Below are positions 26,176-64,000 of a stretch of 64,000 bases of DNA, one piece after another. A program made the position numbers and the translations under genes. The notes beneath the pieces were generated by a model. It saw only the letters and a list, made by a program, of their open reading frames with translations, did not search any database and was not told where the DNA came from. The DNA comes from a virus. The stretch is from IMG/VR virus record IMGVR_UViG_3300031371_000001, positions 36,652-100,651 of that record; one strand, 5' to 3'. Positions within the stretch are counted from its first letter, which is position 1. Each line of letters opens with the position of its first letter.

Positions 26176-27375
26176 TTAGATCGTGTCCCCGACGTTGTAG
26201 CCCTTGACCAGCGCGGACAGTTCCTCCACCTGGACCGCGACCTTCGCCGTGATCGCGTATTGGTTCACCCGCTTGAAGATATCCCGGTCCTTCTCGATCC
26301 GGATGTCGCGGCCGATCCCAATGATGAAGTTGTCCATGTGGGTCAAGATAACCTGCGGCATCGCCTGATACGTCACCTTGACGGCGGCGCCGAACAGCGA
26401 AGCGGCAGGGGTGATCGTCCCGTTCGTGGCATCGAACGTGTAGTCCGTCCCGGCGCCCGTGTACGGAGTCACCGGAACCTCCGCAAGGGTCTGATCCGTC
26501 ACGATGTCGCTTCCCACCACAAGAGGCTTGTAACGAAGCGTGTAAGGGGTCGCACCACCGGGGAGGGTGATATGCTCGACCACCGTGGGGTTGAACGGCA
26601 TGAGTGCAACCGGGACGATCGGGATCCCGAAGGCTCCCGGCGGCTTGTCCATTCCGAGCGCCGCATCGCCAAGACCCGTCGCACGGGTCGAAAGCTTTTC
26701 GGCGTACAGTTGTGCGAGGTCCGCCGGGACGAAGTAGCGGAGATTCGCGAGGTTCTTTCGGAACTTCGTAGGCATCGCCCGCTTCAGCTTCGCGAAGACT
26801 CCCGCGCCGATCGAAGCGTCGGAAATGTCGACGGTGTTCCCGCCGTCCGCCAGCCGTGCCCACCCGTTGAACATCGCAAGGTAGCTGTCCTTGATCACCT
26901 GCGAAGTCGATCCAGGAGGATAGATGTTATCCTCCAGGTCCGCGATTCCAAGCACGTCAGCATTCAGGTACAACTCCTCCAAGTTGTTCCCAAGTTGACG
27001 GGCCATCATGCGGATAATGTGGTCTTCCGCACCATCGCCTTCGATGTTCACTTCCTTGAAGTTGTCGGAAATCTCGAACGGCACGATGATTTCCTTGGGG
27101 GTGAGCGTGATCTTGCTTGTCGTCACGCCGCGACGGTGCGATGGAGCAACCGCCTCCGCGGCCGGCATTGCCACGCGGCCGCCGACACCGATCTTGTCGA
27201 TGTCGAGGTCTTCGTTGCGGAAGCGAACAACGCGGGCGTTGTTCTTCAGAAAAGTTTCATCGATCACGTAATCGATGAACTTGTCGGATTGCTTCGCGTT
27301 CAGCTTGCCGGCAGTTGCGATCGTGTCAGTCGTGATCGCCGCCTTCTCACGATCAAGGATTTCTTCGGGCTTCAT
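26176..27375 (-). CDS. Major capsid protein
   Basis: 399 residues, start at ATG behind GGAGGAGGCTCGAA. HK97-like features: an N-terminal helical arm, VIDETFLKNNARVVRF, the P-loop-like ISDNFKEVNIEG..EDHIIRMMARQLGNNLEEL spine helix, and a late ILTHMDNFIIGIGRDIRIEKDRDIFKR followed by TAKVAVQVEE typical of the A-domain. Residues about 265-330 look like a small inserted beta-domain. It has its own promoter and is flanked by scaffold and HeH genes. It should be the most abundant virion protein. Confidence 0.9.
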   Translation of the reverse strand: MKPEEILDREKAAITTDTIATAGKLNAKQSDKFIDYVIDETFLKNNARVVRFRNEDLDIDKIGVGGRVAMPAAEAVAPSHRRGVTTSKITLTPKEIIVPFEISDNFKEVNIEGDGAEDHIIRMMARQLGNNLEELYLNADVLGIADLEDNIYPPGSTSQVIKDSYLAMFNGWARLADGGNTVDISDASIGAGVFAKLKRAMPTKFRKNLANLRYFVPADLAQLYAEKLSTRATGLGDAALGMDKPPGAFGIPIVPVALMPFNPTVVEHITLPGGATPYTLRYKPLVVGSDIVTDQTLAEVPVTPYTGAGTDYTFDATNGTITPAASLFGAAVKVTYQAMPQVILTHMDNFIIGIGRDIRIEKDRDIFKRVNQYAITAKVAVQVEELSALVKGYNVGDTI

Positions 27376-27394
27376 TTCGAGCCTCCTCCGTTTT

Positions 27395-30431: not shown

Positions 30432-30804
30432 TTGCGAGTTCCCCCAAATCGATCATGAGACTTGCAATGGCGTTCGGATGCTTCTTCTTCCAAGCCTCAA
30501 CGAACGACACGAGTTCTTCCAATCGAAGCGGCTGGATTTCTAGCGTGAAGGCGTCAGAAACAATCATCATGGATTCCCAAAAGCTATCGAACCCGATCTT
30601 TTCAATCTTCGCAACGTGCGGGTTGTTCGCTTCCGGTTGATACCATGCAAACCCTTTCTTCCCCATTCCGAAGGCAACAACCGGGAAACGAACGGGGTTC
30701 CCCGTTCTTCCGGTTTCTGGTTCCTTCGAGGTGAATGTCACCTCCAACCCTCCCGTCGTCCCGAACCAATTTCCAAGAACCTTCTTCGCTTCGTCTTGCG
30801 TCAT
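30421..30804 (-). CDS. Small protein of the head-gene block, unknown
   Basis: 127 residues, ATGA overlap with the giant head gene upstream. Contains VRFPVVAFGMGKKGFAWYQP and a C-terminal helix LVSFVEAWKKKHPNAIASLM. No domain recognised. Stop-start overlaps on both sides show it belongs to the head operon. Confidence 0.6.
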   Translation of the reverse strand: MTQDEAKKVLGNWFGTTGGLEVTFTSKEPETGRTGNPVRFPVVAFGMGKKGFAWYQPEANNPHVAKIEKIGFDSFWESMMIVSDAFTLEIQPLRLEELVSFVEAWKKKHPNAIASLMIDLGELANGS

Positions 30805-33800
30805 TCCGAAGAACCTATCCCCGATCCGATCTTGACTATGGATTCCGGTTTGTTCTTGAACTTGAAGAGGCTTTCGTCTTCTAGTTGCTTCAGAATCTTG
30901 ATAGCTTCTTCCTTCTCGTATTCATCGGACACATAGACACGGGACAGCTTGCCAAGATCGATCCCGTTCTCAAAGATCGTTTCGTCGCCGCCCTTAGATT
31001 CAGAAAGAGCCTTCCAAACGTTTTCAAGATCATCGGGCAACGTCTGGTTCCTCCTGATTCCTCCGTATCCTTCCGTCCAATGCTGAGTTCCGTATTTGTC
31101 GCCTTTATAGGTGTATACGTTCGAGTTGAAGGCGTCGTCAGGCTCAAACCAAATATTCCTGAAATTCTGATTCGAGTTTTGATAAGCCGGGGTCCGAACG
31201 CGACTAAAACCCATCCTTGCGCCGCCATATTGCATATCGGTTCCGGGACTCCAACCCCGTGGGATGATCCCGACGCGGAACTTTTCTTCAGTCGATAAGA
31301 ATCCTGATTTGTTCGACGCAACGTTTCGAAGGAATTCGATCCCGGTATCCCCACTATAGAAATGGTGCAAAAGCTTATGATTCTTCTTCAGCTTCTTCAC
31401 TACTGCCGGATCGATGTCGAACCGTGCCCAAACCGTTTTTCCATAACCGCCGTACCATTGCGCGATCGGCTTCGCCTTGATCGGACCCTTCGCGATCGTT
31501 TCCGCCCAATCGCGAAGCTTCTTCAACTTCGCGTTGTAATTTTCAGTAGCCCAATCGATCGAATCATAGATCGTGTCGCGATAGTATCGCTCCGCGATCG
31601 TCTTCAGCATGATATATTCAAGCTCTTTCTTTGATGCCAACGGGATCGACAAGCCGCGCTTGTCGAGTTCGGCCAAAGCGCCGGCCATGTCTTCCGGCGT
31701 GAATTGCTTAATCGATTTCGAGAACTCGATTTGAAAAAGCCTTTCGGCTGAAAAATGTTCGGCGTTCTCGCCGCCGGCGACGTATCGAATTTTAACGCCG
31801 CCCTTCAATTCGATTTCGTACCCGTTCATTACACGAGCAAGATCGCCAGTGTCTTCAATCTCCCCAAGCGGGTTCAAGTTGTATCGCTTCCAGCCGACAG
31901 GTTTAAAGGCGTTGCTTCCTTGCTGTTCGAACTTCGACAAGCCGAACTTCTTTTTCATGTTCTTGATATTGAATCGGTTCGCCCCCGTATCATACCAAGC
32001 TTTGACTTGGATCTTGTAATCCTGAAGCGCGCCATATCCCCATTTCGATTCGATCTGACGAATAAGATTCAAAGCTTGTTGAACCTGATCATATGAAAAG
32101 TTCCGACTTGCTTCCGGCACAACGGCGTCACCGAAACGATTCCGGATCTTCTTCGAGATTTCTTCGAGTTGCGACCGGAGGGAAGTAAGCTCCGGGAGTT
32201 CCGATATCGGTTGCGCGCCGGCAGTCTCGAAAAGTTTTCTTGCGATTGCGTCACCTTCAGCGGTCAAACGCATTTCAACCATGACGCCGCCTTGCTTCGG
32301 ATAAACAAGCACGGTTCCATCCCGAACGTTATCGCCGCCGACAAGCAAGCTTTTTCCCCTCCACTTCGATTCTTCGACTTGGCTTATAAATTTACTGTCG
32401 CAAGGTGTCGCAAGCCCTTTCTTCTTCAAGGCGTTCGTTTGACCCTTGATCCCCTTCGGCTTTTTGCCGATCACCTTGTCGCGTTCCTTTTGTGCCTTCT
32501 TCCAGATCCCGGACATATCGTCTCGAAGCGAGTTCTTCCGCTTCAACGCTTCCTTCAAGAACGCGGCTTCGTCAAAGTCCGGGAAGGCTTGTGCGCGTTT
32601 GGAGGAATAGGTCTTCAGAATGCTTGTAAAAGTCGCGTCGTCAAGATCGTCAACAGCCTTGAAGAATGAACGGAGTTCCTTGTTGCGAAGGTCAAGCAAC
32701 TTCAGATCACCGAATGCGCCCTTCGCGTATCCTTCAAGAACTTCATTGTATATCGGAGGGGGGAATCCGCCTCCCGCGTTCGGGCTGTAAGTCCAAGACA
32801 ATTTGTCCCGTGGAAAGAACTTGTAGAGTTGCCCTTTGTCGATCCCAAGGATCGAATCGTCCGCGAGAGTGATCAGGTTTTGCGAATGCCCGTCATGGTT
32901 CGAGATCAGCCAGTCGAAGGCGTGTTCTTTCTGGATCCCGATCATTTGATTCTTCGTCAGGTCCGCATAGTTCACGCCCTTGAAATCGCCCTTTACTCCG
33001 TTGATCCACTTGTGGACGGATCCAACCCGTCCATTGTATTCGGTAACGTAGACTTCGGCTGTCGGATGTCCCAAAGCTTCCGCCATTCGAGCGGCGGCGA
33101 CGTCACCATAAGCGCGGAATTCCTCCCCCGCATGGTATGGCTTGAACATCCATTCCGTTCCGTCATTTTCCCTGAAGAACAACTTTTGATGAACGCCGCC
33201 GGCTTCCTTGTGGAAGCTTTGCATTTTCGCAAGATCCTTGTCGAAATGGATCGGCGTCAGCTTGCCTCCCTGCGGCAATTCAAATTCCGGAGTCGGCAAC
33301 GGGACTCCGAACTCCGTTTCGGAATTGATATCGAGAGTGCAACGACAACGAAAATGAAACGGGGGAATCCCATATCCGTTTTTTGCAAGCGCCGAAGCCT
33401 CCGTCTTTGACGTCGAGGAACCGGAAGGGGTGACGCCCGTTCGTTTCTCGATCCCCTTCAAAGAATCCCAACGAATGATCCGCTTGACTTCCTCCGGGTT
33501 CTTCGTCGCAAGCGCACGATTCATGAGATCGGCGCCTTCACTTACTTGAAAGACCGTCCCCTCCAGGTTCGAGCAAACCGGGCAAGTCCGTTCGTCCATT
33601 GGGTTCGATATCGTGTAGCTTTGCGCCCCGACACGTTGAAGTCCGTTCAATGTGCCGAACGTTCTTGCAACAGTCATCGTGTTCGCCGCCAGCCCTTCGT
33701 AATATTGGGCGATCGATCCGCTCCAACCGTGCGGCACTATCGACGCCGCCGTGAAAGCGCCGGGAGCTTTGCTAAACAGGTTTTCGAGTTCGGATTGAAC

Positions 33801-34427
33801 TTTCTTCGCGCCTTCTGCCCTATCGAACCCCTCCTTGATCATTGCATCCGTCGCCGTGTTCGCGATCGTATCAGAAAGCGCCTTGTCGTAATGAACACCG
33901 ATCCAAAAGACTTGATGATCTGACAAGGTTGCAATCGCGTCTTCGTCAATGACAGAAAACGTCGGGGTTAGTGTCGCGATAGGATCCGACGCCTTTTCAC
34001 GTTCAGTCCATTCATCGGAAACCGATTCGAACTTGTGCGGCGATGGATAGGTGATATCGCGATTCCTTGGATACGTTCCAACCGCCTTCTTCAATATCGC
34101 CTCGAATCCGGCTTTGTAGGCTTCCTCCGTCGCCTTTGTATAGAAAGGTCCAAGAGTCTTCGGGAGCGTCTTGAAATGCGAATCGAAGCGATCTAGAAGC
34201 CTTGAAAGCGAAGCTTCGTCCTTCGCTTTCCCGGACGCGATCGATTTCGTCAGTTCGGAAAGCGCAACCTTCGCACGCTTGCGGAATTCACCGATCGACA
34301 CTTCGTAAAGGCGGCGCTCAATCTCGGAAAGCCGCTTCGCTTCTTCAATGACGGCCGCCTTTTGAACGATCGCGTCAAGATGGATCAGCGCCTCGAAGGT
34401 CGAAAGCGCGTGTCCGTCGCAACACAA
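30801..34427 (-). CDS. Giant Mu gpF-like minor head protein with kinase-like domain and C-terminal effector-like region
   Basis: 1208 residues, TTG start after TAGGGGGCGCCG. Residues about 240-370 are an SPP1 gp7/Mu gpF head-morphogenesis domain (SYTISNPMDERTCPVCSNLEG, IPPFHFRCRCTLDI). Residues about 410-620 look like a HipA/PI3K-type kinase fold: WMFKP (K429), RAYGDVAAARMAEALGHPTA, DWLISNHDGHSQNLI with D512, H514 and N517, and GIDKGQ (D530). The remaining 580 residues include LLHHFYSGDTG, GFLSTEEKFRVGIIPRGWSP and GTDMQYGGARMG, a C-terminal module that might be an ADP-ribosyltransferase-like or other ejected effector. gpF-type proteins enter the capsid with the portal, so the fused domains may be delivered into the host. 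Domain names beyond gpF are inference. Confidence 0.8.
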   Translation of the reverse strand: MCCDGHALSTFEALIHLDAIVQKAAVIEEAKRLSEIERRLYEVSIGEFRKRAKVALSELTKSIASGKAKDEASLSRLLDRFDSHFKTLPKTLGPFYTKATEEAYKAGFEAILKKAVGTYPRNRDITYPSPHKFESVSDEWTEREKASDPIATLTPTFSVIDEDAIATLSDHQVFWIGVHYDKALSDTIANTATDAMIKEGFDRAEGAKKVQSELENLFSKAPGAFTAASIVPHGWSGSIAQYYEGLAANTMTVARTFGTLNGLQRVGAQSYTISNPMDERTCPVCSNLEGTVFQVSEGADLMNRALATKNPEEVKRIIRWDSLKGIEKRTGVTPSGSSTSKTEASALAKNGYGIPPFHFRCRCTLDINSETEFGVPLPTPEFELPQGGKLTPIHFDKDLAKMQSFHKEAGGVHQKLFFRENDGTEWMFKPYHAGEEFRAYGDVAAARMAEALGHPTAEVYVTEYNGRVGSVHKWINGVKGDFKGVNYADLTKNQMIGIQKEHAFDWLISNHDGHSQNLITLADDSILGIDKGQLYKFFPRDKLSWTYSPNAGGGFPPPIYNEVLEGYAKGAFGDLKLLDLRNKELRSFFKAVDDLDDATFTSILKTYSSKRAQAFPDFDEAAFLKEALKRKNSLRDDMSGIWKKAQKERDKVIGKKPKGIKGQTNALKKKGLATPCDSKFISQVEESKWRGKSLLVGGDNVRDGTVLVYPKQGGVMVEMRLTAEGDAIARKLFETAGAQPISELPELTSLRSQLEEISKKIRNRFGDAVVPEASRNFSYDQVQQALNLIRQIESKWGYGALQDYKIQVKAWYDTGANRFNIKNMKKKFGLSKFEQQGSNAFKPVGWKRYNLNPLGEIEDTGDLARVMNGYEIELKGGVKIRYVAGGENAEHFSAERLFQIEFSKSIKQFTPEDMAGALAELDKRGLSIPLASKKELEYIMLKTIAERYYRDTIYDSIDWATENYNAKLKKLRDWAETIAKGPIKAKPIAQWYGGYGKTVWARFDIDPAVVKKLKKNHKLLHHFYSGDTGIEFLRNVASNKSGFLSTEEKFRVGIIPRGWSPGTDMQYGGARMGFSRVRTPAYQNSNQNFRNIWFEPDDAFNSNVYTYKGDKYGTQHWTEGYGGIRRNQTLPDDLENVWKALSESKGGDETIFENGIDLGKLSRVYVSDEYEKEEAIKILKQLEDESLFKFKNKPESIVKIGSGIGSSE

Positions 34428-39176: not shown

Positions 39177-39204
39177 TGCTTCATCTTACCATGCGAAAAT
39201 TCAG

Positions 39205-39276
39205 AAGGGGAATCGGGACTCGAACCCGAAACATCCGGCTCCAAAGGCCGGCGTTCTGCCATTGAACTATTCCCCT
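39205..39276 (-). tRNA. tRNA-Gln (anticodon TTG)
   Basis: 72 bases. Acceptor AGGGGAA/TTCCCCT, D-arm GTTC..GAAC, anticodon stem CCGGC/GCCGG around loop CTTTGGA (anticodon TTG at 39244-39242), T-arm TCGGG TTCGAGT CCCGA. CCA is not encoded. It should read CAA codons. Confidence 0.88.
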
Positions 39277-39577: not shown

Positions 39578-39585
39578 CCCCCTAG

Positions 39586-39657
39586 TGACCCTGACGGAAT
39601 TTGAATCCGTATTGCCGGCTTGAAAGGCCAGTGTCCTAACCGTTAGACGACAGGGCC
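39586..39657 (-). tRNA. tRNA-Glu (anticodon TTC)
   Basis: 72 bases. Acceptor GGCCCTG/CAGGGTC (one G-U), D-arm typical, anticodon stem CTGGC/GCCGG (one G-U) around loop CTTTCAA, anticodon TTC; T-arm ACGGA TTCAAAT TCCGT. CCA is not encoded. It reads GAA codons. Confidence 0.88.
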
Positions 39658-40278: not shown

Positions 40279-41658
40279 TCAGTCGAGGATCGTGATCTTC
40301 TTCCGCCCCTTCAGGACGACGAAGATCCGTCCGTTTATCTTCGTCCAACCGACCGTTCCGGACACCTTCACGCGAAGCCCGATCGGGGACCTCTTGAGAG
40401 TCGCCTCCGAATAGTCGAATCCGTAATCCTTCACGACAACCCTCCAGCCGTTATCGGCCTCGATCTTCACCTTCTGGAAAGAGTTGTAACGGGGCCGCTC
40501 CACGAACTCGGTTGCGTCGATCGTCCCCTCGAACTCGATCTTGTCGTCCACGGCCGGCGCCGGCGCCGTGTCCACCTTCGGCGCCTCCTTCTTCGCAGTC
40601 TCGCGATCAAGCGCCGTCTTGATCGACTCGATCCACCGGGCCGACATATGCCAGCCCTTGACGATCGCGTTCTTCGAGTTCTTCCAGAAAGTCCGACCGT
40701 CCTCCTCCGCGTTCGCCATGATCTGAAGCATCGCCCAACGCTCCGGGGTTCCGCAAACCTCCAACGCCCGCACGTCGGCCGCCGTGTCCCTGGCGATCTT
40801 CCTGGCGACTCGCCTCCAAGTGGCATCGAAGCCAACCCGCTTGATCGCCGTGAAGATACCGTCAACAACCTTGTCCGTGTAGGCGGCGCCCGAACGAATC
40901 GCCGGGATTCCCCGCTTCGCGTCCTCGATCATTTTCGAGGTCACGCAAGGGGGGATCGCATCCGTGTCCGAAGCGTCCTCGATAAGCGCGCGGAAGGTGT
41001 ATCCCCAACCGGACCCGGAATCGAGCAAGTCGTCAAGTTTCTTGTTCACTGAAACGATCTTGCGCGTGACGTAGGCCGCCCGCTTCATCGCCTTCGCCAC
41101 GGCCGCCGCGTCCTCCGGATCCGGGTAAACGGCGTCAACGTAATTCACGATGCACTCGCAACCCACAAGGAGGGTTAATTTCTTCGAGTCGCAAACGAGC
41201 GGGTAGAAGTAGCGCACGGGCCGGTGTCCGCAAAGCCGGCAGATCCCGGGGTCGCCGCCGTCCCCGAACTTCACCTCCGCGTCCGGGCCGGCAACCTCCT
41301 TGAACCCTGCGATCATGATCGATGTGTACTCCTCCGGGGTGGGGCCGTAGCCGCCAAGAACGACGTAACCGCCGCGCTTCCCACGAAGGGGGCGCCAATC
41401 GTCCGCCGTCGTTCCGAGGTGGAGGAAGGTGCGCCCGATTCTGATCAGGTAGGAAAGCTTTTCGCGCGTGACGGCGATCGCCTCCTCCGTCTTCGCTCCC
41501 CTGACTTCCTCCTCCAGGGAATTGATATCGACCTTCACGCAACCCGTGTCGTTCAGGTTCTTCAGTTCCCCAAGCAATACCTCCAGAGTCACCTCCGGGA
41601 GGTCTGTTGCCTTCGGCTTGCTGAAAAGGCTTCGCGTTGTCTCGATTGCAGTTCCCAT
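40279..41658 (-). CDS. Zinc-finger and OB-fold protein, probably nucleic-acid binding
   Basis: 459 residues from the ATG at 41658, chosen because ACAACGGAGGAAATC precedes it; an upstream in-frame ATG would only add an Asn/Gly-rich leader peptide. Residues about 140-185 carry CRLCGHRP and LLVGCECIVNYV, a phage zinc-finger pattern (C..CG..x(n)..GxECI). The last 85 residues (IEFEGTIDATEFVER, VKVSGTVGWTKINGRIFVVL) look like an OB-fold. Together these suggest single-strand nucleic acid handling. It is the last gene of the unit started at 42353. Confidence 0.65.
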   Translation of the reverse strand: MGTAIETTRSLFSKPKATDLPEVTLEVLLGELKNLNDTGCVKVDINSLEEEVRGAKTEEAIAVTREKLSYLIRIGRTFLHLGTTADDWRPLRGKRGGYVVLGGYGPTPEEYTSIMIAGFKEVAGPDAEVKFGDGGDPGICRLCGHRPVRYFYPLVCDSKKLTLLVGCECIVNYVDAVYPDPEDAAAVAKAMKRAAYVTRKIVSVNKKLDDLLDSGSGWGYTFRALIEDASDTDAIPPCVTSKMIEDAKRGIPAIRSGAAYTDKVVDGIFTAIKRVGFDATWRRVARKIARDTAADVRALEVCGTPERWAMLQIMANAEEDGRTFWKNSKNAIVKGWHMSARWIESIKTALDRETAKKEAPKVDTAPAPAVDDKIEFEGTIDATEFVERPRYNSFQKVKIEADNGWRVVVKDYGFDYSEATLKRSPIGLRVKVSGTVGWTKINGRIFVVLKGRKKITILD

Positions 41659-41716
41659 GATTTCCTCCGTTGTTCCGTTTCCGTTGTTCCCGTTGTTGTT
41701 GTTCCCGTTGTTCATC

Positions 41717-42103
41717 TTAGTTGCCCCGAACCTCTGAAAGCTTGCACGGCTTGAAGAAGCGGTCCCGCTCGATCGAGGGGACGCCGTAGCCCGTGAAGGT
41801 GAGAAGGCCCAACTCGTAAAGGTCGAAGTAGCCGGCCTCCAGCCCGAAGCCGGTTCCGAGGTCCACGTAACCGAAGAAGGTACGATCGCCGTCGAATTCG
41901 GTTGCGTACCAAGTGGCGGCGGACTGGATGGAAAATAGTTTGACGAAGACGGTTGGATCCGCCGTGTCCTGCGAACGAAGGGCCGGAAGCTTCTTCGCGG
42001 AAGCCTTGTCGAGTAGCTTGTGGCGGCGCTTGCCGTCGATCCGCTTCATGAGATAGGCCAGCTTATCCGCGTCCAGATTGGCGATCATTTCGGAGTAAGT
42101 CAT
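41717..42103 (-). CDS. DUF2958-family protein
   Basis: 128 residues. The C-terminal 85 match the DUF2958 pattern: TVFVKLFSIQSAATWYATEF, FFGYVDLG, GYFDLYEL, GYGVPSIERDRFFKP. The family is common on plasmids, integrative elements and phages; its biochemical role is not known. The N-terminal 40 residues are helical and basic. It lies two bases after the KOW-like gene and is in the same transcription unit. Confidence 0.8.
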   Translation of the reverse strand: MTYSEMIANLDADKLAYLMKRIDGKRRHKLLDKASAKKLPALRSQDTADPTVFVKLFSIQSAATWYATEFDGDRTFFGYVDLGTGFGLEAGYFDLYELGLLTFTGYGVPSIERDRFFKPCKLSEVRGN

Positions 42104-42104
42104 T

Positions 42105-42311
42105 TCACGCCTCCACGGTGGAAAGGATCCGGACCCTCCAGCCCTTGCCCTTTTCGATGATCATCGGAAACCCGTCGTTGTCGAACACGTCGAACCGGAC
42201 GACTTCGCCGGCGCTCCGGAAAACTTCTCCGATCCAACCCTCAAAGGTTTCGATCCTGTCGTGCGAAACCCTAACCTTGTCTCCGACCGTGATTGCGTTG
42301 ATCCTTTTCAT
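42105..42311 (-). CDS. Small SH3/KOW-like protein
   Basis: 68 residues from the ATG at 42311, which has GGAGGGAACG in front; an ATG at 42353 coincides with the expected transcription start and would add a CAA-rich leader peptide, so it is not chosen. Sequence: ITVGDKVRVSHDRIETFEGW, then GEVFRSAGEVVRFDVFDNDG, ending GWRVRIL, a small beta-barrel like KOW or Tudor domains. First gene behind the promoter at 42360-42388. Confidence 0.7.
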   Translation of the reverse strand: MKRINAITVGDKVRVSHDRIETFEGWIGEVFRSAGEVVRFDVFDNDGFPMIIEKGKGWRVRILSTVEA

Positions 42312-42338
42312 CGTTCCCTCCGTCGTTGCCGTGTTGCT

Positions 42339-42452
42339 GTTTCCCGTTGCCATGATTAAGTTATAGCCCGATAGGTATCGGATGTCAAGCCTTAGAGTCG
42401 ATTATTTTCGGGTCCTATGTCGTTTTTTCTCTAAGTGTGCTGAAATACGGCG
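42339..42452 (-). promoter_or_regulatory. Promoter-operator element, copy 1
   Basis: Minus-strand TTGACA (42388-42383), 17-base spacer, TATAAC (42365-42360). The spacer contains the palindrome CCGATA-CC-TATCGG. Upstream of the -35 is a block GGACCCGAAAATAATCGAC that is identical in copy 2 at 58312-58436, and the similarity continues to GGCAACGGGAAAC downstream of the start point. It drives the genes 42311 to 40279. Confidence 0.8.
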
Positions 42453-42511: not shown

Positions 42512-43417
42512 CTAGACCCCGGACAGCTTGGAAAGGACGAATCGCCGGCGTTCCGGAAGGAGGGAGGCGAACCCCGGGGACGTGTCGAAGCCAAGCCCCC
42601 GACGATCCAGCGCGTCCGCAACCGCGATCGTCGTCCCGGATCCGGCGAAGGGATCAAGCACAACGTCCCCCGGCTCCGTGGCGTGTCGGATCGCGCGTTC
42701 GGGAAGCGCGACAGGGAACAACGCCGGGTGTTTCCCCCACGGTTCGAGGTTCACTTCCCACACGTCGCGCGACTCGCCTTTGATCTTCGTCCACTTGTAA
42801 CGCTTCGACTTCGAGCAAAGGAAGATCGGTTCGTGTGCATTCGCAAGGCGATCCTTCGCAGTCGTCGGCATGGGGTTTTGCTTCGTCCATTGGATCACAT
42901 TGCGGACAAGGAAGCCGGCCTTGCGAAGCGCGAAGAAGATCAGGAAGGGGATTCCAACAAGCGTCTTGCCGCCATTCGGATCATACGAATCCGCAACGTT
43001 CCAAAACAAAGTTCCGTCGTCCCGGAGGACGCGGCGAAGTTCAACGAAGATTTCGAGACAATGCCGCACGTAATCGCCGGTCTTCTTCTCCGTTCCAAGC
43101 GCGCCGTTCCAAGCGCCGCACTTCTGACACGTCGCCTCCGAAATGAACCCGCGTTGAATTCCCGCCTTCGTTGCTCCGACCTTCGCGTTCCCAATCGACA
43201 ACCCCCCGCTTGTCGTCAACCGCTTGTTCCAAATCCAGTTGTGATCACAATCCGGATCGTCGTCCCAAATCGTCAGTTGCGTTTTGTCGTAAGTGCGTTT
43301 TCGGAAGTAAGGCGGCGATGTGAAGATCGTCTGAATGCAACCGTCCGGAATCCGGGACAGACAATCCCGAACTTCTCCGACGTGATAACCGGGAACCTCG
43401 AACGGACCTAGTTTCAC
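42512..43417 (-). CDS. DNA methyltransferase (adenine-N6 or cytosine-N4)
   Basis: 301 residues from the GTG at 43417, which overlaps the ParB-like stop as GTGA; a TTG at 43432 is an alternative. Catalytic motif TSPPYF (motif IV) lies near residue 35 and the AdoMet-binding motif VVLDPFAGSGT near the C-terminus, the beta-class order. The middle holds CQKCGAW and the phrase WTKQNPMPTTAKDRL-ANAHE typical of these enzymes. It probably modifies phage DNA against host restriction. Target site is unknown. Coupled to a ParB-like gene, a pairing found elsewhere as a fusion. Confidence 0.88.
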   Translation of the reverse strand: MKLGPFEVPGYHVGEVRDCLSRIPDGCIQTIFTSPPYFRKRTYDKTQLTIWDDDPDCDHNWIWNKRLTTSGGLSIGNAKVGATKAGIQRGFISEATCQKCGAWNGALGTEKKTGDYVRHCLEIFVELRRVLRDDGTLFWNVADSYDPNGGKTLVGIPFLIFFALRKAGFLVRNVIQWTKQNPMPTTAKDRLANAHEPIFLCSKSKRYKWTKIKGESRDVWEVNLEPWGKHPALFPVALPERAIRHATEPGDVVLDPFAGSGTTIAVADALDRRGLGFDTSPGFASLLPERRRFVLSKLSGV

Positions 43418-44271
43418 TCGCCTTCGGTCCAATCGGGGATATCGTCGATCGCAAGCGCGACTTTCAGCGCGTCAACGAATCCGTCGATATAGGATCCCTT
43501 CGGCGGCGAGATCGACTTGTCGCCTTCCTCGATCCCTTCGAGGATCTCGTGAAGGACATTCCATTTGCGCGTGCGGCGCCGCGGCTTCGGATCTCCACCT
43601 GACTTCTTCGACGCGGCCTTCCGAACGTCCTTGCCCTTCGCCTTCTTCCCGCCGCTCGAAGCCAGCGCGTCCGCAAGGGCGGACTCTTGCTTTCTCTTGT
43701 CGTCGGGGAAGCGGCGGACAAGCTCCGACACGACGGACGGTGCAACCAGTCCGTCGATCAACGCCTTGCGAACCTTCGGTGCCGCCTGAAGAAGTCGGAG
43801 AGATCGCGTGACGTGTTCGCCGTCACGTCCCAACTTTTCGGCAACGTCCTTCGCCTCCATTCCGAAATCGAGGAGGCGCTTGTATCCTTCGGCCCGCTCG
43901 ATAGGGGACAGATCCTCCCGAAGCTCGTTCGCAAGAACGGTCGTGAACAGCGCGTCCGATTCGTTCGAGTAACGGGATTCGAACTCGACAGGGACCGTCT
44001 TGATCGGTGCCTTCAACGCCTTCTTCGCGTACAGGATCGCGCGGAGGCGCCGCTCCCCGTCCACGAGAACGATCCGATCCCCATCTCGACGGACAAGGAG
44101 GGGTGTCTTCAGACCGGAGTTCACGATCGACTTCGCGAGACGCTGCAAGCCGTCCTTGTTGAAATCCTTTCGTGGGTTCCAACCCTTTTCGATCTCGATC
44201 GCTTCGGGCGGCACCTGATAGGCGTTCCTTTTCTGGATCCCCTCGTGAAGTGCGGTTATCGGCTTCGCCAT
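43414..44271 (-). CDS. ParB-like nuclease-domain protein
   Basis: 285 residues. N-terminal ParB/sulfiredoxin fold: NPRKDFNKDGLQRLAKSIVN, GLKTPLLVRRDGDRIVLVDG ERRLRA, then LTTVLANELREDLSPIERA-type helix and a helix-turn-helix AKDVAEKLGRDGEHVTRSLR. The C-terminal third is basic (KPRRRTRKWN) and then acidic. In phages such proteins often partner a DNA methyltransferase, as here (GTGA overlap), and may act in DNA recognition rather than partition. No ParA is present. Confidence 0.85.
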   Translation of the reverse strand: MAKPITALHEGIQKRNAYQVPPEAIEIEKGWNPRKDFNKDGLQRLAKSIVNSGLKTPLLVRRDGDRIVLVDGERRLRAILYAKKALKAPIKTVPVEFESRYSNESDALFTTVLANELREDLSPIERAEGYKRLLDFGMEAKDVAEKLGRDGEHVTRSLRLLQAAPKVRKALIDGLVAPSVVSELVRRFPDDKRKQESALADALASSGGKKAKGKDVRKAASKKSGGDPKPRRRTRKWNVLHEILEGIEEGDKSISPPKGSYIDGFVDALKVALAIDDIPDWTEGE

Positions 44272-49661: not shown

Positions 49662-49788
49662 GTCTCCCAAACCTTTCCCGGGCGTTCGCCCGCTACTGTG
49701 ATCCTATGGAAACCGTGCGCGCGGCGTTCGCACTGAATCGCGGAACCTATCGAGCAACGGCGCGCGGCGCGGCGGGTAAACTCGCCTA

Positions 49789-50302
49789 CCTATTATATAT
49801 AATAGGATTTTCCCCTAGCCCCCATTACAAGGCATTTAAAAGGGAAATTTATCCCTGCCGGCGCCGCGAGGACCTGATCGATCGTCCCTCAATCGCCCCG
49901 AACGTCCCCAATCCTCCCCGCCGTCGCATCGATCGAACGCCGGGGAATCGCGTCGTTCGCTTGCGCCCCCGTGTCGATCGAGGCGTTCGCACCCTCTATT
50001 ATATATTATACCGGAACCCTTATTATATATAATAGCCTCCCTCCAAACACCCGATCGCCTCGCATCCTCCCGGGAGCATCCCCCGAACCCTCCCTCCCGA
50101 TCGCCCCTCGCCGCAATCACCGGAGCATCCCCCGATCCCCCGAACCCCAAAGCCTATTATATATTATACCGGGGATTCCCTTCTTTCGAACTAGATCGCC
50201 CGCGCGCGCGAAGCCAGAAAAGGCGCCCCCCCTCTACGCCCCTATATTGTACCAAATATTTATAATAGGGGCTAGATGAGGGGGGGCGTATAATATATAA
50301 TA
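49789..50302. repeat. Cluster of AT-rich 14-mers (TATTATATATNATA)
   Basis: TATTATATATAATA (perfect palindrome) at 49791-49804 and 50021-50034; TATTATATATTATA at 49997-50010 and 50155-50168, both followed by CCGG; its inverse TATAATATATAATA at 50289-50302; and a related imperfect palindrome GCCCCTATATTG...TATAATAGGGGC at 50238-50272. These sit in otherwise very GC-rich DNA and occur nowhere else in the window that I can find. Confidence 0.85.
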
Positions 50303-50374
50303 GCGGACGGGCGCCTCCCTTCCTCAAACCTTTTCCCTCGACACGGCACTTCAGGGGAATCGCATCAAACGCTA

Positions 50375-50447
50375 ATGGTGTCAGCCTGTATTCAGGGGGA
50401 AAAGAAGAAGGCTTGTTGCAAACTTTTCCCCCATATACAGACACCAT
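50375..50447. repeat. Long imperfect inverted repeat
   Basis: Left arm 50375-50404 (ATGGTGTC...CTGTATTCAGGGGGAAAAG) and right arm 50423-50447 (CTTTTCCCCCATATACAG...CACCAT) with an 18-base loop. It could form a cruciform or RNA hairpin or bind a dimeric protein. Similar TATACAGG words recur at about 50938 and 50983. Confidence 0.75.
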
Positions 50448-50665
50448 AGCGCAAAGCCGGAAGGGGCTTGTCCGCCTGAAAGGATAAGAAGCCGTCACGC
50501 CGTCGAGGCGTCGAGGGCAGGGGATGAAGGAAATGGACCTTGCTTGGCGGGGTAGGCTCCCGGACACAACAAACAACGGCCGGCGCTCGATAAGCGGCGT
50601 CGGGTCGAGAGGCGAGAGGCGCGGCGCCGTGGCGGCGAACGATAACCGAAGCCCGTTTCCCGGCG

Positions 50666-50808
50666 GTCGATTGTCGAGAGGCGGTGCGTCTTGGCGGCGA
50701 ACGATACCGAACGTCGATTGTCGAGAGGTCGATTGTCGAGAGGCGGTGCGTCTTGGCGGCGAACGATACCGAACGTCGATTGTCGAGAGGCGGTGCGTCT
50801 TGGCGGCG
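50666..50808. repeat. 47-bp tandem repeats
   Basis: Unit beginning GTCGATTGTCGAGAGG and ending ACGATACCGAAC: full copies 50666-50712 and 50728-50774, a partial 15-base copy 50713-50727 between them, and a partial copy 50775-50808. A diverged copy lies at about 50602-50655. Iteron-like arrangement; the inner TCGATTGTCGA is itself nearly palindromic. Confidence 0.85.
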
Positions 50809-51283
50809 GGTCAGACATTTAGATCCAGCCTCCCCGCCGCCCGCCGAATGATCCGGAGTGGGGGGGCCGCGCTTGGTAGCTACTAGGTTCCCGGTGCAAG
50901 ATCCGAAGCCTAACAAGCCCCGTTCGTGATCCCCGTTTGTATACAGGCTCCCGGTTGTGACGCCGGGATAGACGCCGGATAAGTATACAGGGCAGGTGGA
51001 GGATAGGTGCGGAGGTAAGATGTTAGCGGCCACTGCGGCAGGGCGGCGGGAGGGCGGGGAGGCGCGTGGGACGCCCCCGCCGTCCCGCCGCAGCGCCTCT
51101 AAGCCGAGCCAGCCTCCCAAGCCTATGTGAATTGGTTCGACCATTCGACATTTCGATACACTTGTCCAAAGGTCCAACCATTCACCCAATCCCCGCACCC
51201 ATCCCCAACCCACCGAATACAATACAGTTTCCACGATTCACCTATCGATCGCCACTTCTACCGTTCCACTCGCACCCCTCGCA

Positions 51284-51321
51284 CACTGGAACAAATTGGA
51301 ACACATTGTTCCAGTGTTCCA
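51284..51321. promoter_or_regulatory. Operator-like cluster of four TGGAACA sites
   Basis: TGGAACA at 51287 and 51297, then its inverse TGTTCCA at 51307 and 51315: start spacings of 10, 10 and 8 bases put the sites on about one face of the helix. The outer CACTGGAACA/TGTTCCAGTG arms form a perfect 10-base inverted repeat. It lies 220-260 bases before the rightward operon, where a repressor or activator could act. Confidence 0.65.
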
Positions 51322-51544
51322 CACGTCGCAGCGTTCCGCCCCTTTGGGGTTTCCCGGCGATCTGTCCTATCGCTTCCCCGGCATTGCTCGTGTAGCGCCG
51401 TGATTCGCCAGTCAGGGCTTCCTTTGGGCTTGGGGCTATGCTCGTATGGATCGTGGTCCTTCTCGGCTTGACGGGCCAATCAGGGGCTTTCGTGGGATCG
51501 TGGGAATGTTGGATTCCATAGGAGGAGGATACAGGAGGTTTGGG

Positions 51545-52735
51545 ATGACCGAAGCAAAGGTGAAAGAGAGACTCGACCGTGAAGGCCGCGCCGTGAAGGA
51601 GGAACCGATGAACGATCGAGGCATGGATATCCGGCAATGGCTGGAAGTGGAAAAGGACAAGGCGACGGAGGCGATCGGGTTTTCGCTTGGGGATCAAAGG
51701 GCGATCGCCGTTGGGAAGAAGAAGCTTGCGATCGACGCTATCGCCTTCCTCGATAGGGAGGGTTGCGGTTGTACGATCGACGCCCTGGAGGCGGGACGCA
51801 ACGCCGCGATCCTGTTGCGGTTGCTTTCATGGACTCGACGGCGTGACGGGACGCCCTGCCGTGGAGGAATGGACGACACGTTCCGCGCTGGCGTGACGGC
51901 GTGCAAGGACTTCCTCCAGGACATGATCGGCGCCGGGGACGCGGAGGCGCACGACACGCAGGTTGCGCGGCGGCGCATGAAGGGGGAGAAGATCGCGTTG
52001 TCGAGATTGGAGGAAGTGACGGACGCTATCCGGGACGGATCGGGCGAATGGGGCGCCGTGCGGGAGATTCTAGACGCAACGCCGCCCGCCGCCAAGACGA
52101 AGGAGGCGCGCATCTTCTGTCCGTATTGGCCCGGAGCTATCGAGCGGACAAGGTGCAAGGCGAAGTGTCCGCCGGGTTATGAGTTCCCTCCTCCCGGTTC
52201 GGATCTTCCTTGCACCGTCCCCGCGACGGTCGCCGGGGGCGACAAGTTCATCCAGTACAACCCCGATACTGGATTCGTAGAGGAATGCTCGCCCGACGGG
52301 GAAGGGGAGGCGATGGCGCCGCCCCTCGACTTCTCGAAGCGCGGGGACGGCTTCACGGGTGAGCCGTGTTCCCACCTGTCCGCCGTTCCGGGAAGCGATC
52401 GCGCCTGCAAGATGCTCGAAGGCGAACACGACTGCCCCCCGGGAGCCGACGATCGTTGCATGGTTCACGGGGATGATTGGCCCGCTGAAGGTTGGATCGA
52501 GGAAGCCGAATCGATCGAGGAGGCGGCAGTTCGCATTGCTGGCAATGACGAACAATATTCCAACGCAACCCACGGGATCCCCGTGGCGATCGTCCGGGCG
52601 ATCGAGATCCGATGTGTCGAGAAGATCGTTGACTTGCTTCCGACCGTTGGAGCGGAGGCGTTGCGACGATACGGCGCCTCGCACAAGGACGGGTTCGCCG
52701 TGACGTGCGGCCGACACGAGGAGGAGGGATCATGA
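51545..52735 (+). CDS. Cys-containing protein, first gene of the rightward operon
   Basis: 396 residues from the ATG at 51545 (AGGAGGTTTGGG in front). A second strong site (GGAGGAACCG, ATG at 51608) could start a 375-residue form. The N-terminal half is helical and charged (AIGFSLGDQRAIAVGKKKLA, LEAGRNAAILLRLLSWTRRR). The middle and end hold Cys clusters: CPYWPGAIERTRCKAKCPPG, CSPDGEG, CSHLSAV...CKML...CPPGADDRCMVH, which may bind metal. The C-terminal 75 residues are helical. No family recognised. It is the lead gene, and ends GAG GGA TCA TGA in overlap with the next. Confidence 0.7.
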   Translation: MTEAKVKERLDREGRAVKEEPMNDRGMDIRQWLEVEKDKATEAIGFSLGDQRAIAVGKKKLAIDAIAFLDREGCGCTIDALEAGRNAAILLRLLSWTRRRDGTPCRGGMDDTFRAGVTACKDFLQDMIGAGDAEAHDTQVARRRMKGEKIALSRLEEVTDAIRDGSGEWGAVREILDATPPAAKTKEARIFCPYWPGAIERTRCKAKCPPGYEFPPPGSDLPCTVPATVAGGDKFIQYNPDTGFVEECSPDGEGEAMAPPLDFSKRGDGFTGEPCSHLSAVPGSDRACKMLEGEHDCPPGADDRCMVHGDDWPAEGWIEEAESIEEAAVRIAGNDEQYSNATHGIPVAIVRAIEIRCVEKIVDLLPTVGAEALRRYGASHKDGFAVTCGRHEEEGS

Positions 52736-57474: not shown

Positions 57475-57678
57475 TTACCAGCGGCGGCCGTAAATCTTGC
57501 GGTTGGGGTCAAGTCCAAGATCGAAGTCGTCTTCCGTGATATCGTCCTTCCCGTACATTTCGAAGATCGAAAGAGGCTGTCCGCTTTCGATATCGCCGGC
57601 GCAACGCTTCGAGCAATCGCCCTTGTCGTCAAGGGGAGCATCACAGTAAAAACAGGTTTCGTCCTTCGTCGTTGTCAT
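57475..57678 (-). CDS. Small zinc-knuckle protein
   Basis: 67 residues from the ATG at 57678 (AAGGAGGCTTGATC in front; the longer frame upstream is not used). CFYCDAPLDDKGDCSKRCAG gives two CxxC-like pairs. The rest is acidic (DDITEDDFDLGLDPN). Unknown function. Confidence 0.68.
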   Translation of the reverse strand: MTTTKDETCFYCDAPLDDKGDCSKRCAGDIESGQPLSIFEMYGKDDITEDDFDLGLDPNRKIYGRRW

Positions 57679-57680
57679 GA

Positions 57681-57923
57681 TCAAGCCTCCTTCTTCATTT
57701 GATGACGAATCCCTTTGCGCGTCGGACGGACAAGCGGCCTTAGATCGCCGTTGTGTCCCACGGTATAAACAAGCCCACGATCGAAGGCGCTTTTGAGGGT
57801 TGTTTCCGAAGCACACTGTCCGAAATACGTTTCATGATTCACGAGATCATTAAGTAGCCGGCGCTCCGCGTCGGTTAGTTCAACGTTCTTCCTCTTGTCC
57901 GTCGTTCCATTCGTCGTCGTCAT
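57681..57923 (-). CDS. Winged-helix-like small protein
   Basis: 80 residues from the ATG at 57923 (AAGGAGGGTTGATC in front). ELTDAERRLLNDLVNHETYF and TLKSAFDRGLVYTVGHNGDL, followed by VRPTRKGIRHQ, have the helix/strand pattern of winged helix-turn-helix regulators. It could regulate the promoter copies at 58312 or 42339; this is speculation. Confidence 0.6.
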   Translation of the reverse strand: MTTTNGTTDKRKNVELTDAERRLLNDLVNHETYFGQCASETTLKSAFDRGLVYTVGHNGDLRPLVRPTRKGIRHQMKKEA

Positions 57924-57925
57924 GA

Positions 57926-58297
57926 TCAACCCTCCTTCGAAAGATTCGCCGCGGTTTCGATCGCCGCGCGCTTTGCATCGCCGCTGCGCTTCGTCCCGAA
58001 CTCGAAAGAAGCGACGGGATAGAACTTTTCGCCGCTGTCACCGGACGGATAGACTTCGGAAACAATGCGTCCGACGATAAAGCGCGCGTATCTATGCGCC
58101 TTGATATCGTCCCGGGCGAATTCCTTTCCTGAAGCAACCTGGAGGATCGCAACGTCGCCGCTCCGCTCGATAACCTTGACCGCCGCCCCGGCGTATCCAA
58201 CAAGACGAAGATCGCCGTCCGCCGAAGACTGAATCCAAGCGGCCCTGTTCTCGACATTGGACTTGAAGTGATCCCGGTTTGCCTTTTCGATCATCAT
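57926..58297 (-). CDS. Small protein behind promoter copy 2
   Basis: 123 residues, GGAGGCGGCATC before two successive ATGs (58297 and 58294). Beta-rich with VKVIERSGDVAILQVASGKE and KAHRYARFIVGRIVSEVYPS. Overlaps the next gene by a TTGA-type junction. Function unknown. First gene of the short unit 58297 to 57475 or 57210. Confidence 0.65.
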   Translation of the reverse strand: MMIEKANRDHFKSNVENRAAWIQSSADGDLRLVGYAGAAVKVIERSGDVAILQVASGKEFARDDIKAHRYARFIVGRIVSEVYPSGDSGEKFYPVASFEFGTKRSGDAKRAAIETAANLSKEG

Positions 58298-58311
58298 GAT
58301 GCCGCCTCCGT

Positions 58312-58436
58312 GTTTCCCGTTGCCATATCTAACTTATAGCCCGATACCCTTCGGGAGTCAAGCCTTTGTGTCGATTATTTTCGGGTCCAATGTCGTTTTT
58401 CCGCTAAGTCGTTGAAATGATAGGCGGAAAAGAACG
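58312..58436 (-). promoter_or_regulatory. Promoter-operator element, copy 2
   Basis: Minus-strand TTGACT (58361-58356), 17-base spacer, TATAAG (58338-58333). The spacer has the inverted repeat CCCGA...TCGGG. GGACCCGAAAATAATCGAC upstream and ATGGCAACGGGAAACA downstream match copy 1 (42339-42452); similarity covers about 115 bases. Confidence 0.8.
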
Positions 58437-58463: not shown

Positions 58464-58530
58464 GGCGCCTTTACCGGAGGCGCCCGTATCCGCCCCTTGA
58501 AGCCCCGAAGCCCCGGGGGGATACGGATAC
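58464..58530 (-). other. Hairpins after the zinc-ribbon operon
   Basis: GGCGCCT/AGGCGCC (58464-58470 with 58478-58484) and GTATCCG/CGGATAC (58486-58492 with 58524-58530, GC-rich inside). Placed between the last zinc-ribbon gene and promoter copy 2; no U-tract is obvious, so termination here would probably be factor-dependent. Confidence 0.4.
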
Positions 58531-58583
58531 AGCCCCTCCCCCTATCGGACGCCATGGCGCCCGCCTCCGGGCTTCCTGGAGGG

Positions 58584-59483
58584 TCATTCGTCAGCCGGTG
58601 GAATGGGCGGCCCGTCGAATAGCTTGACAGTGAAGACGTGCCCGCAATCCTCGCAACGATACGACGCCCCGACGCCCGGTGATTCTGGCGACAAGACGCG
58701 AAGTCCCTTTCCCGTCTTGCAATGCGGACAGCCGTGTGTTTCAGAAAGGCGATCGCGTTTCTTCTTCGCCGCGCGAACCTTCTTTTTCCATCTATGGCCG
58801 CACACCTTGCAAAACAGACTTTTAACTCGAAAGTCTTCATAGCTCGTTTCGATATCACTTCCCTGGTTCCCACACTCCGGACAAATAACGACGTGTTCCG
58901 GCAAGTCGTCTTCGGCGCCCGCCGGCCGGCGCAAGATCCAATGCGCCCCGCAATCGCAAGCGAATTCAGCGCGCGCCCCATTCGCCTTCGAGTCGAAGAA
59001 CCAGCTTCCCTCCGTGTTCTCGCCGCACACCGGACAGATCGATTCATCGGGTTTCGTTCCGACGAAAGGCGCGCACCTGAAGTAACTTGGAGGTCCGTAC
59101 CAAGAATGCCCGCAACCGTCGCACTCGAAATCGATTCGTGAAGGCGTCCATTCGTTTTCTTCTTCGCGCGGCTTCCCGAAGACAAGCGCGCCGCAGACTT
59201 TGCACGTCATGAAGAACGATTCGTTGACGGGTTTCCTGGCGTGATCGACGCCTAGATAGAAGTCTGATTCGGGATCGCCTCCCGGAGTCACCTTCCATTT
59301 GAAGTCACATTCGTCACACTTGAACGGAAACCGGACGTGTCTTTCCGTCACGCGCGCGAATACCTTGGAGCGACAGCGCCGGCCGCATCGTGGACAGTTG
59401 CGAAACAACGTCCGTGCTTCCGGTTCCTTCGAGAACGAATCCCGGAAGTCTTCGAGCGATCCGGTGATCGGCTTGTCACTCAT
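58584..59483 (-). CDS. Five-ribbon zinc protein with GSLxxFRxxF tag
   Basis: 299 residues from the ATG at 59483 (ATGA overlap with the upstream gene; more upstream ATGs have no ribosome binding site). Residues 8-21 are GSLEDFRDSFSKEP. Then five zinc-ribbon units, each CxxC near the start and CxxC (or CxCG) about 25-45 residues later: CPRC/CDEC, CKVC/CDGC, CPVC/CDCG, CPEC/CKVC, CPHC/CEDC. A tandem ribbon array suggests binding of DNA, RNA or protein partners. No enzyme motif is visible. Last gene of the operon. Confidence 0.75.
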   Translation of the reverse strand: MSDKPITGSLEDFRDSFSKEPEARTLFRNCPRCGRRCRSKVFARVTERHVRFPFKCDECDFKWKVTPGGDPESDFYLGVDHARKPVNESFFMTCKVCGALVFGKPREEENEWTPSRIDFECDGCGHSWYGPPSYFRCAPFVGTKPDESICPVCGENTEGSWFFDSKANGARAEFACDCGAHWILRRPAGAEDDLPEHVVICPECGNQGSDIETSYEDFRVKSLFCKVCGHRWKKKVRAAKKKRDRLSETHGCPHCKTGKGLRVLSPESPGVGASYRCEDCGHVFTVKLFDGPPIPPADE

Positions 59484-63406: not shown

Positions 63407-64000
63407 CTATTTCTCTTTATGGGAATAGCCTTCGACGTCGTTTCCGAAATGATCAAGCCCTAGCTTTTCCTCGATACCATGCGGCAGGAAAGGGTTGTAA
63501 ACGCGGATATTCAAGCCGTGCTGAAGGCAAAACTTGATTTCGTCACGGATCGAAAGCGTCGGACGGCGCTTGATCAACTCGACATCGATCGGATCCTCGA
63601 CGGAAACGATCACGTCGAAAGCCCACGGTTTCGACTTGCCGTTGATATCCTCGAACCGCTTGACGACTTCGACGGGGATCTTGCACACCGAAGCCCGGAG
63701 CGCCATTCGATCCGCGCTTCCCTTCGCGTATGATTCGGCGCCCCAACCCTGCGTTCGATAGCTCCCGATCCAAACGCTGTCGAGAGTCGCAGTTGTATCC
63801 CCGGCGCGCGGCTTCAGCTTGGCGGCCATGTCGTCAAGCCTGTATTCGATCGCCTTCACTTCGTCGGCATAATCGTTATACGAAATCTCCGCTTCCTCCC
63901 GGCGATGCTTCATGATCGAATCGCGTTCGTCTTTGTCGAGTAGTTTGGAAAGCTTGCTATAGGCGTCGATTCGCTTCCGGGGAAACTTCGCCTTCGCCGC
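63407..64000 (-). CDS. Unknown protein, partial
   Basis: The frame is open to the right edge (197 residues visible); a Met at 63913 is internal. The visible part begins with a basic helical region (FPRKRIDAYSKLSKLLDKDE), then VKAIEYRLDDMAAKLKPRA, VWIGSYRTQGWGAESYAKGS, and a beta/alpha end with FDVIVSVEDPIDVELIKRRP and FCLQHGLNIRVYNPF. No domain recognised. It precedes the zinc-ribbon operon with a six-base gap and may be its first part. Confidence 0.6.
   Translation of the reverse strand, partial: AAKAKFPRKRIDAYSKLSKLLDKDERDSIMKHRREEAEISYNDYADEVKAIEYRLDDMAAKLKPRAGDTTATLDSVWIGSYRTQGWGAESYAKGSADRMALRASVCKIPVEVVKRFEDINGKSKPWAFDVIVSVEDPIDVELIKRRPTLSIRDEIKFCLQHGLNIRVYNPFLPHGIEEKLGLDHFGNDVEGYSHKEK

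Follow-up and report, generated by a model that had tools for sequence, protein, structure and literature searches.

The window analysed here is a 64-kb stretch of DNA (positions 36,652-100,651) of a virus contig with a total length of 100,651 bp. On its minus strand lie two small-gene units, A and B, each preceded by a copy of the same repeated element (Table 1). The gene of a ParB/KorB-like protein is found close to copy A, with a DNA methyltransferase gene between them, and two tRNA genes, tRNA-Gln (TTG, 39204-39276) and tRNA-Glu (TTC, 39585-39657), are located downstream of unit A. Two further units stand behind copies of the element outside the window, unit C encoding a product of 117 aa and unit D products of 89 and 102 aa. 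Searches of Pfam, PHROGs and PADLOC yielded nothing informative for the products of units A-D, the 89-aa product of unit D matching one PHROG of unknown function.

The ends of the contig carry a 203-bp direct repeat with 99.5% identity (positions 1-203 of stretch L005 correspond to 63798-64000 of the window). The phage genome is therefore probably complete at about 100.4 kb, and it is probably terminally redundant or circular. Since the contig ends are repeated, copies C and D lie only about 6-7 kb beyond copy B. Judging by its predicted genes, the phage is a myovirus, with genes for a tail sheath (assigned through BLAST matches to annotated sheaths), portal, terminase, tail tape measure and DnaE/DnaB-type replication proteins. 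An alphaproteobacterial host is plausible, since the best portal and DnaE matches include phages of Rhizobium and Rhodobacter, alongside phages of other hosts, and since the product behind copy E has a match to the Ros/MucR zinc finger. Profile searches of the phage with working positive controls found no tyrosine integrase (PF00589), cI-type HTH (PF01381, HTH_3) or S24 peptidase (PF00717), thus neither an integrase of the tyrosine type nor a cI-type repressor as in temperate-phage immunity. The phage, of about 100 kb, is apparently lytic.

Table 1. Elements, promoter features and neighbouring genes. Positions are those of the window unless another stretch is named.
Feature	Position	Strand	Basis or remark
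Copy A, whole element	42338..42446	-	95% to C, 94% to D, 83% to B
Copy B, whole element	58311..58418	-	blastn and feature comparison
Copy C	L005 849-720	-	95% to A; outside the window
Copy D	L005 1754-1647	-	94% to A; outside the window
Diverged homologue E	L006, genome 34132	-	70% to C; heads replication/ATPase operon
Diverged homologue F	genome 10564	-	weight-matrix scan; flanks diverged beyond recognition
A, -35 hexamer TTGACA (CTTGACA)	42383..42388	-	sequence
A, -10 hexamer TATAAC	42360..42365	-	sequence
B, -35 hexamer TTGACT	58356..58361	-	sequence
B, -10 hexamer TATAAG	58333..58338	-	sequence
A, spacer dyad CCGATACCTATCGG, candidate operator O1, centre -21.5	42368..42381	-	dyad analysis
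B, spacer dyad CCGAAGGGTATCGG, plus outer C-G pair 58355/58340	58341..58354	-	dyad analysis
A, upstream block GGACCCGAAAATAATCGAC, CGA-N6-TCG centre -51.5	42397..42415	-	0/19 columns vary among A-D
B, upstream block GGACCCGAAAATAATCGAC	58370..58388	-	sequence, alignment
A, invariant leader ATGGCAACGGGAAACA, predicted +1 = 42353	42338..42353	-	sequence; frame by inspection
B, leader ATGGCAACGGGAAACA, predicted +1 = 58326	58311..58326	-	sequence
Unit A, open reading frames of 68, 128 and 459 aa	42105-42311, 41717-42103, 40279-41658 (span 40279..42311)	-	
Unit B, open reading frames of 123, 80 and 67 aa	57926-58297, 57681-57923, 57475-57678 (span 57475..58297)	-	
DNA methyltransferase, between ParB/KorB-like gene and promoter A	42512..43432	-	database match
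ParB/KorB-like protein (ParB_N, HTH_ParB and KorB domains), candidate regulator	43414..44271	-	profile matches

Copies of the element and their predicted core promoter

The original prediction of two near-identical elements was borne out: A and B, read on the minus strand, are 83.5% identical over 109 bp (blastn, E = 4e-25), and the repeat as a whole is overwhelmingly far beyond chance. All the features that they were said to share are present, namely the upstream block (19/19), GGCTTGAC, the 17-bp spacer, CTATAA and the leader (16/16). Further copies, for which a search had been proposed, exist outside the window: C and D are near-identical to A and B (E-values down to 7e-55 in a contig-wide similarity search), E and F are diverged, and G is an apparent relic. 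With a weight matrix built on the 32-bp core, the six members A-F scored 42.8-48.7 bits and the next best site 14.4. On leave-one-out, F (30.3 bits) and E (32.5 bits) each ranked sixth behind the five training members, and non-members reached at most 15.7. All seven sites A-G are on the same, minus, strand; A-F stand directly upstream of a start codon, relic G excepted, and no copy lies inside the structural-gene block.

Aligned over 102 columns, A-D show identities of 82-94%, and their flanks and downstream genes are unrelated. The four copies are recent duplicates, and therefore the blocks that they share may reflect descent and not constraint. The intergenic stretches further upstream of B (58479-58584) and C (L005 887-991) are GC-rich and also related, with 75% identity over about 105 bp, and a degraded version may stand before D; the duplicated unit may thus have been the whole intergenic region. 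Both observations speak for a rival to regulation, plain duplicated promoters, which is weighed below.

The core can be written as CTTGAC-N17-CTATAAC, with the -10 region CTATAA(C/G) in A and B. The hexamers are near-textbook with 17-bp spacing, differing from TTGACA/TATAAT by one mismatch in A, C and F and by two in B and D. If the conserved ATG is taken as +1, they fall exactly at -35 to -30 and -12 to -7. The family, its promoter consensus and spacing and its one-strand placement before genes are features of the sequence itself, as are the dyad and its position. By all sequence signs, the cassettes are predicted to be promoters of host RNA polymerase (RpoD/sigma-70). The core is close to the published Sinorhizobium sigma-70 consensus and matches its S. 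meliloti form, CTTGAC-N17-CTATAT (PMC2573895). This phage has five TTGAC-N18-TATAA sites, always on one strand, against none in seven comparison phages of 93-117 kb picked from the best protein matches.

Behind the promoter, the leader is A/C-rich and is followed by a strong ribosome-binding site, the predicted start of transcription lying 7 nt past the -10 hexamer. In A, C, D and E, the upstream ATG shares the frame of the downstream start, A/C-rich codons separating the two; in B it is out of frame. The second ATG is the likelier start codon because a strong GGAGG precedes it.

Relic G (contig position 2036, minus strand; L005 1940-2040) consists of GGCTTGAC, a 16-bp spacer and GATAAC. A strong hairpin, rich in GC, and TTTTCTT follow within about 20 nt (folding z = -1.9), and the site is possibly a tiny RNA or an attenuator. 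Folding of the sequences between the units gave z-scores between -1.9 and +1.3, on which we base no claim of RNA structure, and Rfam gave no known family besides tRNA. Another promoter-like sequence, TTGACG-N18-TATAAC, is located on the minus strand at 27388 of the window (contig 64039), in the structural region, before the gene at 26176-27375. Its TCGAGGCTATAAC part resembles the cassette family, and it has no dyad.

The spacer dyad and the upstream block

The inverted repeat that had been placed between the -35 and -10 hexamers is found there in A-D and F, and it is a candidate repressor site. The full spacers are TCCGATACCTATCGGGC in A and C, TCCGATAGGTATCGTGC in D, CCCGAAGGGTATCGGGC in B, ACCGATTCCCATCGTGG in F and CTCGAAAGGTAACAGGC in E. 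The number of paired positions out of eight is six in A and C (CCGATA-CC-TATCGG), five in D, five in B (CCCGA-AGGGTA-TCGGG), four in F and at most three in E. Among random 17-mers of this genome, at least six pairs occur in 0.6% and at least five in 3.2%, which makes the dyads by themselves no more than modestly significant. The shared form, CGA-N6-TCG centred at -21.5, occurs in A-D and F, whereas E and G have a broken version of it. It follows that the dyad is not essential to the promoter and that only a subset of the family has the candidate operator.

The best independent evidence for the dyad comes from F, because its flanks have diverged: it keeps CGAT-N4-ATCG in the same register, and CGA and TCG at the exact spacer positions are found in 0.08% of random 17-mers. 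This argues against mere inheritance of the dyads with the promoters, as does the fact that B with its outer pair and D with its altered centre still form five-pair dyads. The broken dyads of E and G point the other way, and so does the count of CCGA-N6-TCGG over the whole window, 58 observed against 79 expected, which gives no enrichment. When the spacer only was scored on leave-one-out, E came out at rank 51 and F at rank 244 among about 201,000 positions.

It had also been suggested that pairing rather than exact sequence is conserved in the spacer. This idea fails, as A and B have the half-sites CCGA and TATCGGG in common and there are zero compensatory pairs: from A to B, pairing is new at position 1 and lost at 6 and 7, while 8 and 9 are unpaired in both copies. 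In D the pair 2-15 is lost. Being upstream of the predicted start, the dyad is absent from the RNA. The half-sites CCGA(T)/(T)ATCGG are thus kept as sequence, with differences mostly in the central four positions, which looks like the pattern of an operator whose centre is not contacted by the dimer bound to it.

Hairpin promoters of the type used by the N4 virion RNA polymerase, in which pairing would matter, are most improbable despite the inverted repeat in the spacer: near-perfect -35 and -10 boxes stand on both sides of it, the centre in A and C is 2 bp (a 4-nt loop at best), compensation is lacking, pairing is broken in E and G, and no RNA polymerase was seen among the large ORFs scanned, the PF00940 search having had no positive control.

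The upstream block contains a second CGA-N6-TCG in A-D, weaker than the spacer dyad, the two centres being 30 bp apart (-51.5 and -21.5). Among A-D, 21 of the 102 columns are variable, and an invariant run of 19 columns arises in 16.5% of shuffles; conservation of the block may therefore be simple descent. A second operator and an UP-element-like A/T tract are equally good candidate readings of it.

Possible regulation of the promoters

The explanation that we favour, and regard as rather probable, is that the cassettes are dispersed early promoters of host RNA polymerase that are shut off together by one repressor at the dyad. One promoter cassette would have been spread by duplication over non-structural genes, each copy serving as a strong promoter for the host housekeeping RNA polymerase, and several small gene units would be turned on jointly, shortly after entry of the genome into the cell; we infer here both the promoter activity and the early timing. 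In A-D and F, a dimer bound at the CCGAT-N4-ATCGG-like dyad between the -35 and -10 hexamers would exclude RNA polymerase, and one sequence-specific repressor, phage- or host-encoded, would thus shut off the early units in concert. That co-regulation runs through the dyad is, in our estimate, an evenly balanced proposition. The original prediction spoke of two co-regulated units. Near-consensus promoters do stand before small-gene units, which likely form one regulated set, but the set is larger, with four near-identical and at least two diverged copies.

As to the presumed repressor, the ParB/KorB-like protein is the sole sequence-specific DNA-binder recognised by profile among the proteins scanned. 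The product of 57681-57923 had been put forward as a winged-helix regulator; it has no family match and its AlphaFold single-sequence model reaches a pLDDT of 50, so that this identity is unproven. Another winged-helix candidate is encoded at L005 1058-1366. Its AlphaFold single-sequence model (pLDDT 66) has helices followed by a hairpin, and no PDB fold matched it better than E = 1.

The cassettes may instead be plain duplicated promoters that are not regulated, with dyads inherited without a regulator and the A/T tract around -50 acting as an UP element. The near-identity of A-D amid unrelated surroundings, the relatedness of B and C beyond the cassette, the broken dyads of E and G and the lack of enrichment all fit this explanation, which the retention of the dyad in F and the five-pair dyads of B and D oppose. 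We consider it possible but doubtful. A bolder proposal is that, in this apparently lytic phage of about 100 kb, a genome-wide set of near-identical promoter-operator cassettes provides interchangeable "sockets" for accessory genes. New early genes would be captured by recombination at the 100-bp cassette, and a regulator of a new type would at once switch them on and off with all the others; this is unlikely.

The dyads could also be sites of the ParB/KorB-like protein, which would spread from promoters or lock at them, in the manner of KorB on plasmid RK2, and so link partition with gene control. The known KorB operator is unlike the spacer dyad, and the embedding of the sites in promoters differs from clustered parS. 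PHROGs, moreover, ties ParB-like domains to methyltransferases (phrog_498), suggesting a different role for the protein. Such a function is improbable, even though this is the only sequence-specific DNA-binder recognised among the proteins scanned, its gene lies just upstream of A with the methyltransferase gene between, and KorB can silence a promoter over a distance of up to 1.5 kb (PMC11790492).

Comparably improbable is control of the early units by a host regulator of the CRP/FNR type, bound at the spacer dyad (O1, -21.5) and at the upstream block (O2, -51.5). GA-N6-TC is the core of CRP/FNR-family sites, O1 and O2 both read CGA-N6-TCG with centres exactly 30 bp apart, and a profile search found no Crp-type HTH in the phage itself, which suits a host protein. 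Against this, the outer bases differ from the CRP/FNR consensus, O2 has no outer pair, and E and G are without a full site.

Comparison with known systems and other features of the genome

The architecture has precedents in host-type early promoters, in SAS/ESAS elements and in dispersed repressor sites. Alphaproteobacterial RpoD early phage promoters (CTTGAC-N17-CTATAT; PMC2573895) are alike in hexamers, 17-bp spacing and place before small-gene units, whereas here one 100-bp cassette is repeated nearly unchanged and carries a dyad in the spacer. Cluster K mycobacteriophages have 11-19 SAS per genome, and their ESAS contain inverted repeats of 17 bp each with a variable spacer (PMC3203893). 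Like the cassettes, these are short repeated elements with inverted repeats and a conserved translation-start sequence, placed before many non-structural genes only; their sequence is unrelated, and here there are 6-7 elements with explicit -35 and -10 boxes. Neither the Cluster K 13-bp GGGATAGGAGCCC motif nor the 17-bp inverted repeats are part of the cassette copies read. Operators and stoperators of Cluster A mycobacteriophages resemble the dyads in that a single repressor could address many genomic sites. Stoperators are, however, asymmetric and mostly outside promoters (PMC9283540), while the dyads are symmetric, embedded in promoters and not enriched elsewhere in the window, and no immunity repressor was found. 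As with the RK2 KorB operators (PMC11790492), several promoters could be served by one ParB-family candidate regulator, whose gene is close to promoter A; unlike in RK2, no KorA partner was seen here.

Searches for relatives gave none that was usable, either with DNA in INPHARED or with the ParB-like, MoxR-like, 459-aa, terminase and CobT-like proteins in IMG/VR, where the terminase retrieved just two fragments (25%). A scan for the exact upstream block gave three coincidental matches, all without a promoter, and pattern scans for the promoter core in IMG/VR (45 stretches) and in GTDB genomes (5 stretches) found none with the same flanks or leader. Five of the IMG/VR stretches (L023, L025, L030, L044 and L059) have the same design, CTTGAC, a CGA-N6-TCG spacer dyad and TATAA, in several cases followed by a gene start, with flanks and genes unrelated to those of this phage. 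The architecture is therefore not unique, and the likeness of promoter and dyad in these stretches is probably convergent.

If the favoured explanation is correct, the promoter alone would mark early, probably host-directed genes of an uncharacterised phage lineage, and the cassette would be a ready reporter and a bait for finding the regulator. It would document one control element spread by a phage over many small genes, and no new principle.

The operon behind E encodes a Ros/MucR-CbbQ-like ATPase, a CobT-like VWA protein, a sigma-like candidate and DnaE, in this order. The first gene (L006 12902-14053, contig 32902-34053), which adjoins the CobT-type VWA gene, encodes an AAA ATPase of the CbbQ/MoxR type whose N-terminal part matches the Ros/MucR zinc finger; the combination of the two in one protein is an unusual fusion for a phage. 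A product of 163 aa (L006 10540-11031, contig 30540-31031) has by eye the look of a small sigma factor and matches no Pfam sigma family.

Between divergent genes of the window, about 1.9 kb (49700-51600) are apparently non-coding. In a GC-rich setting, this stretch contains five or more AT-rich palindromes (CTATTATATATAATAG / TATTATATATTATACCGG type), which are absent from the remainder of the contig. It also includes a 62-bp tandem repeat (50603-50815) and, near 50380-50445, an inverted repeat. By its sequence, it is a candidate replication origin or regulatory hub.
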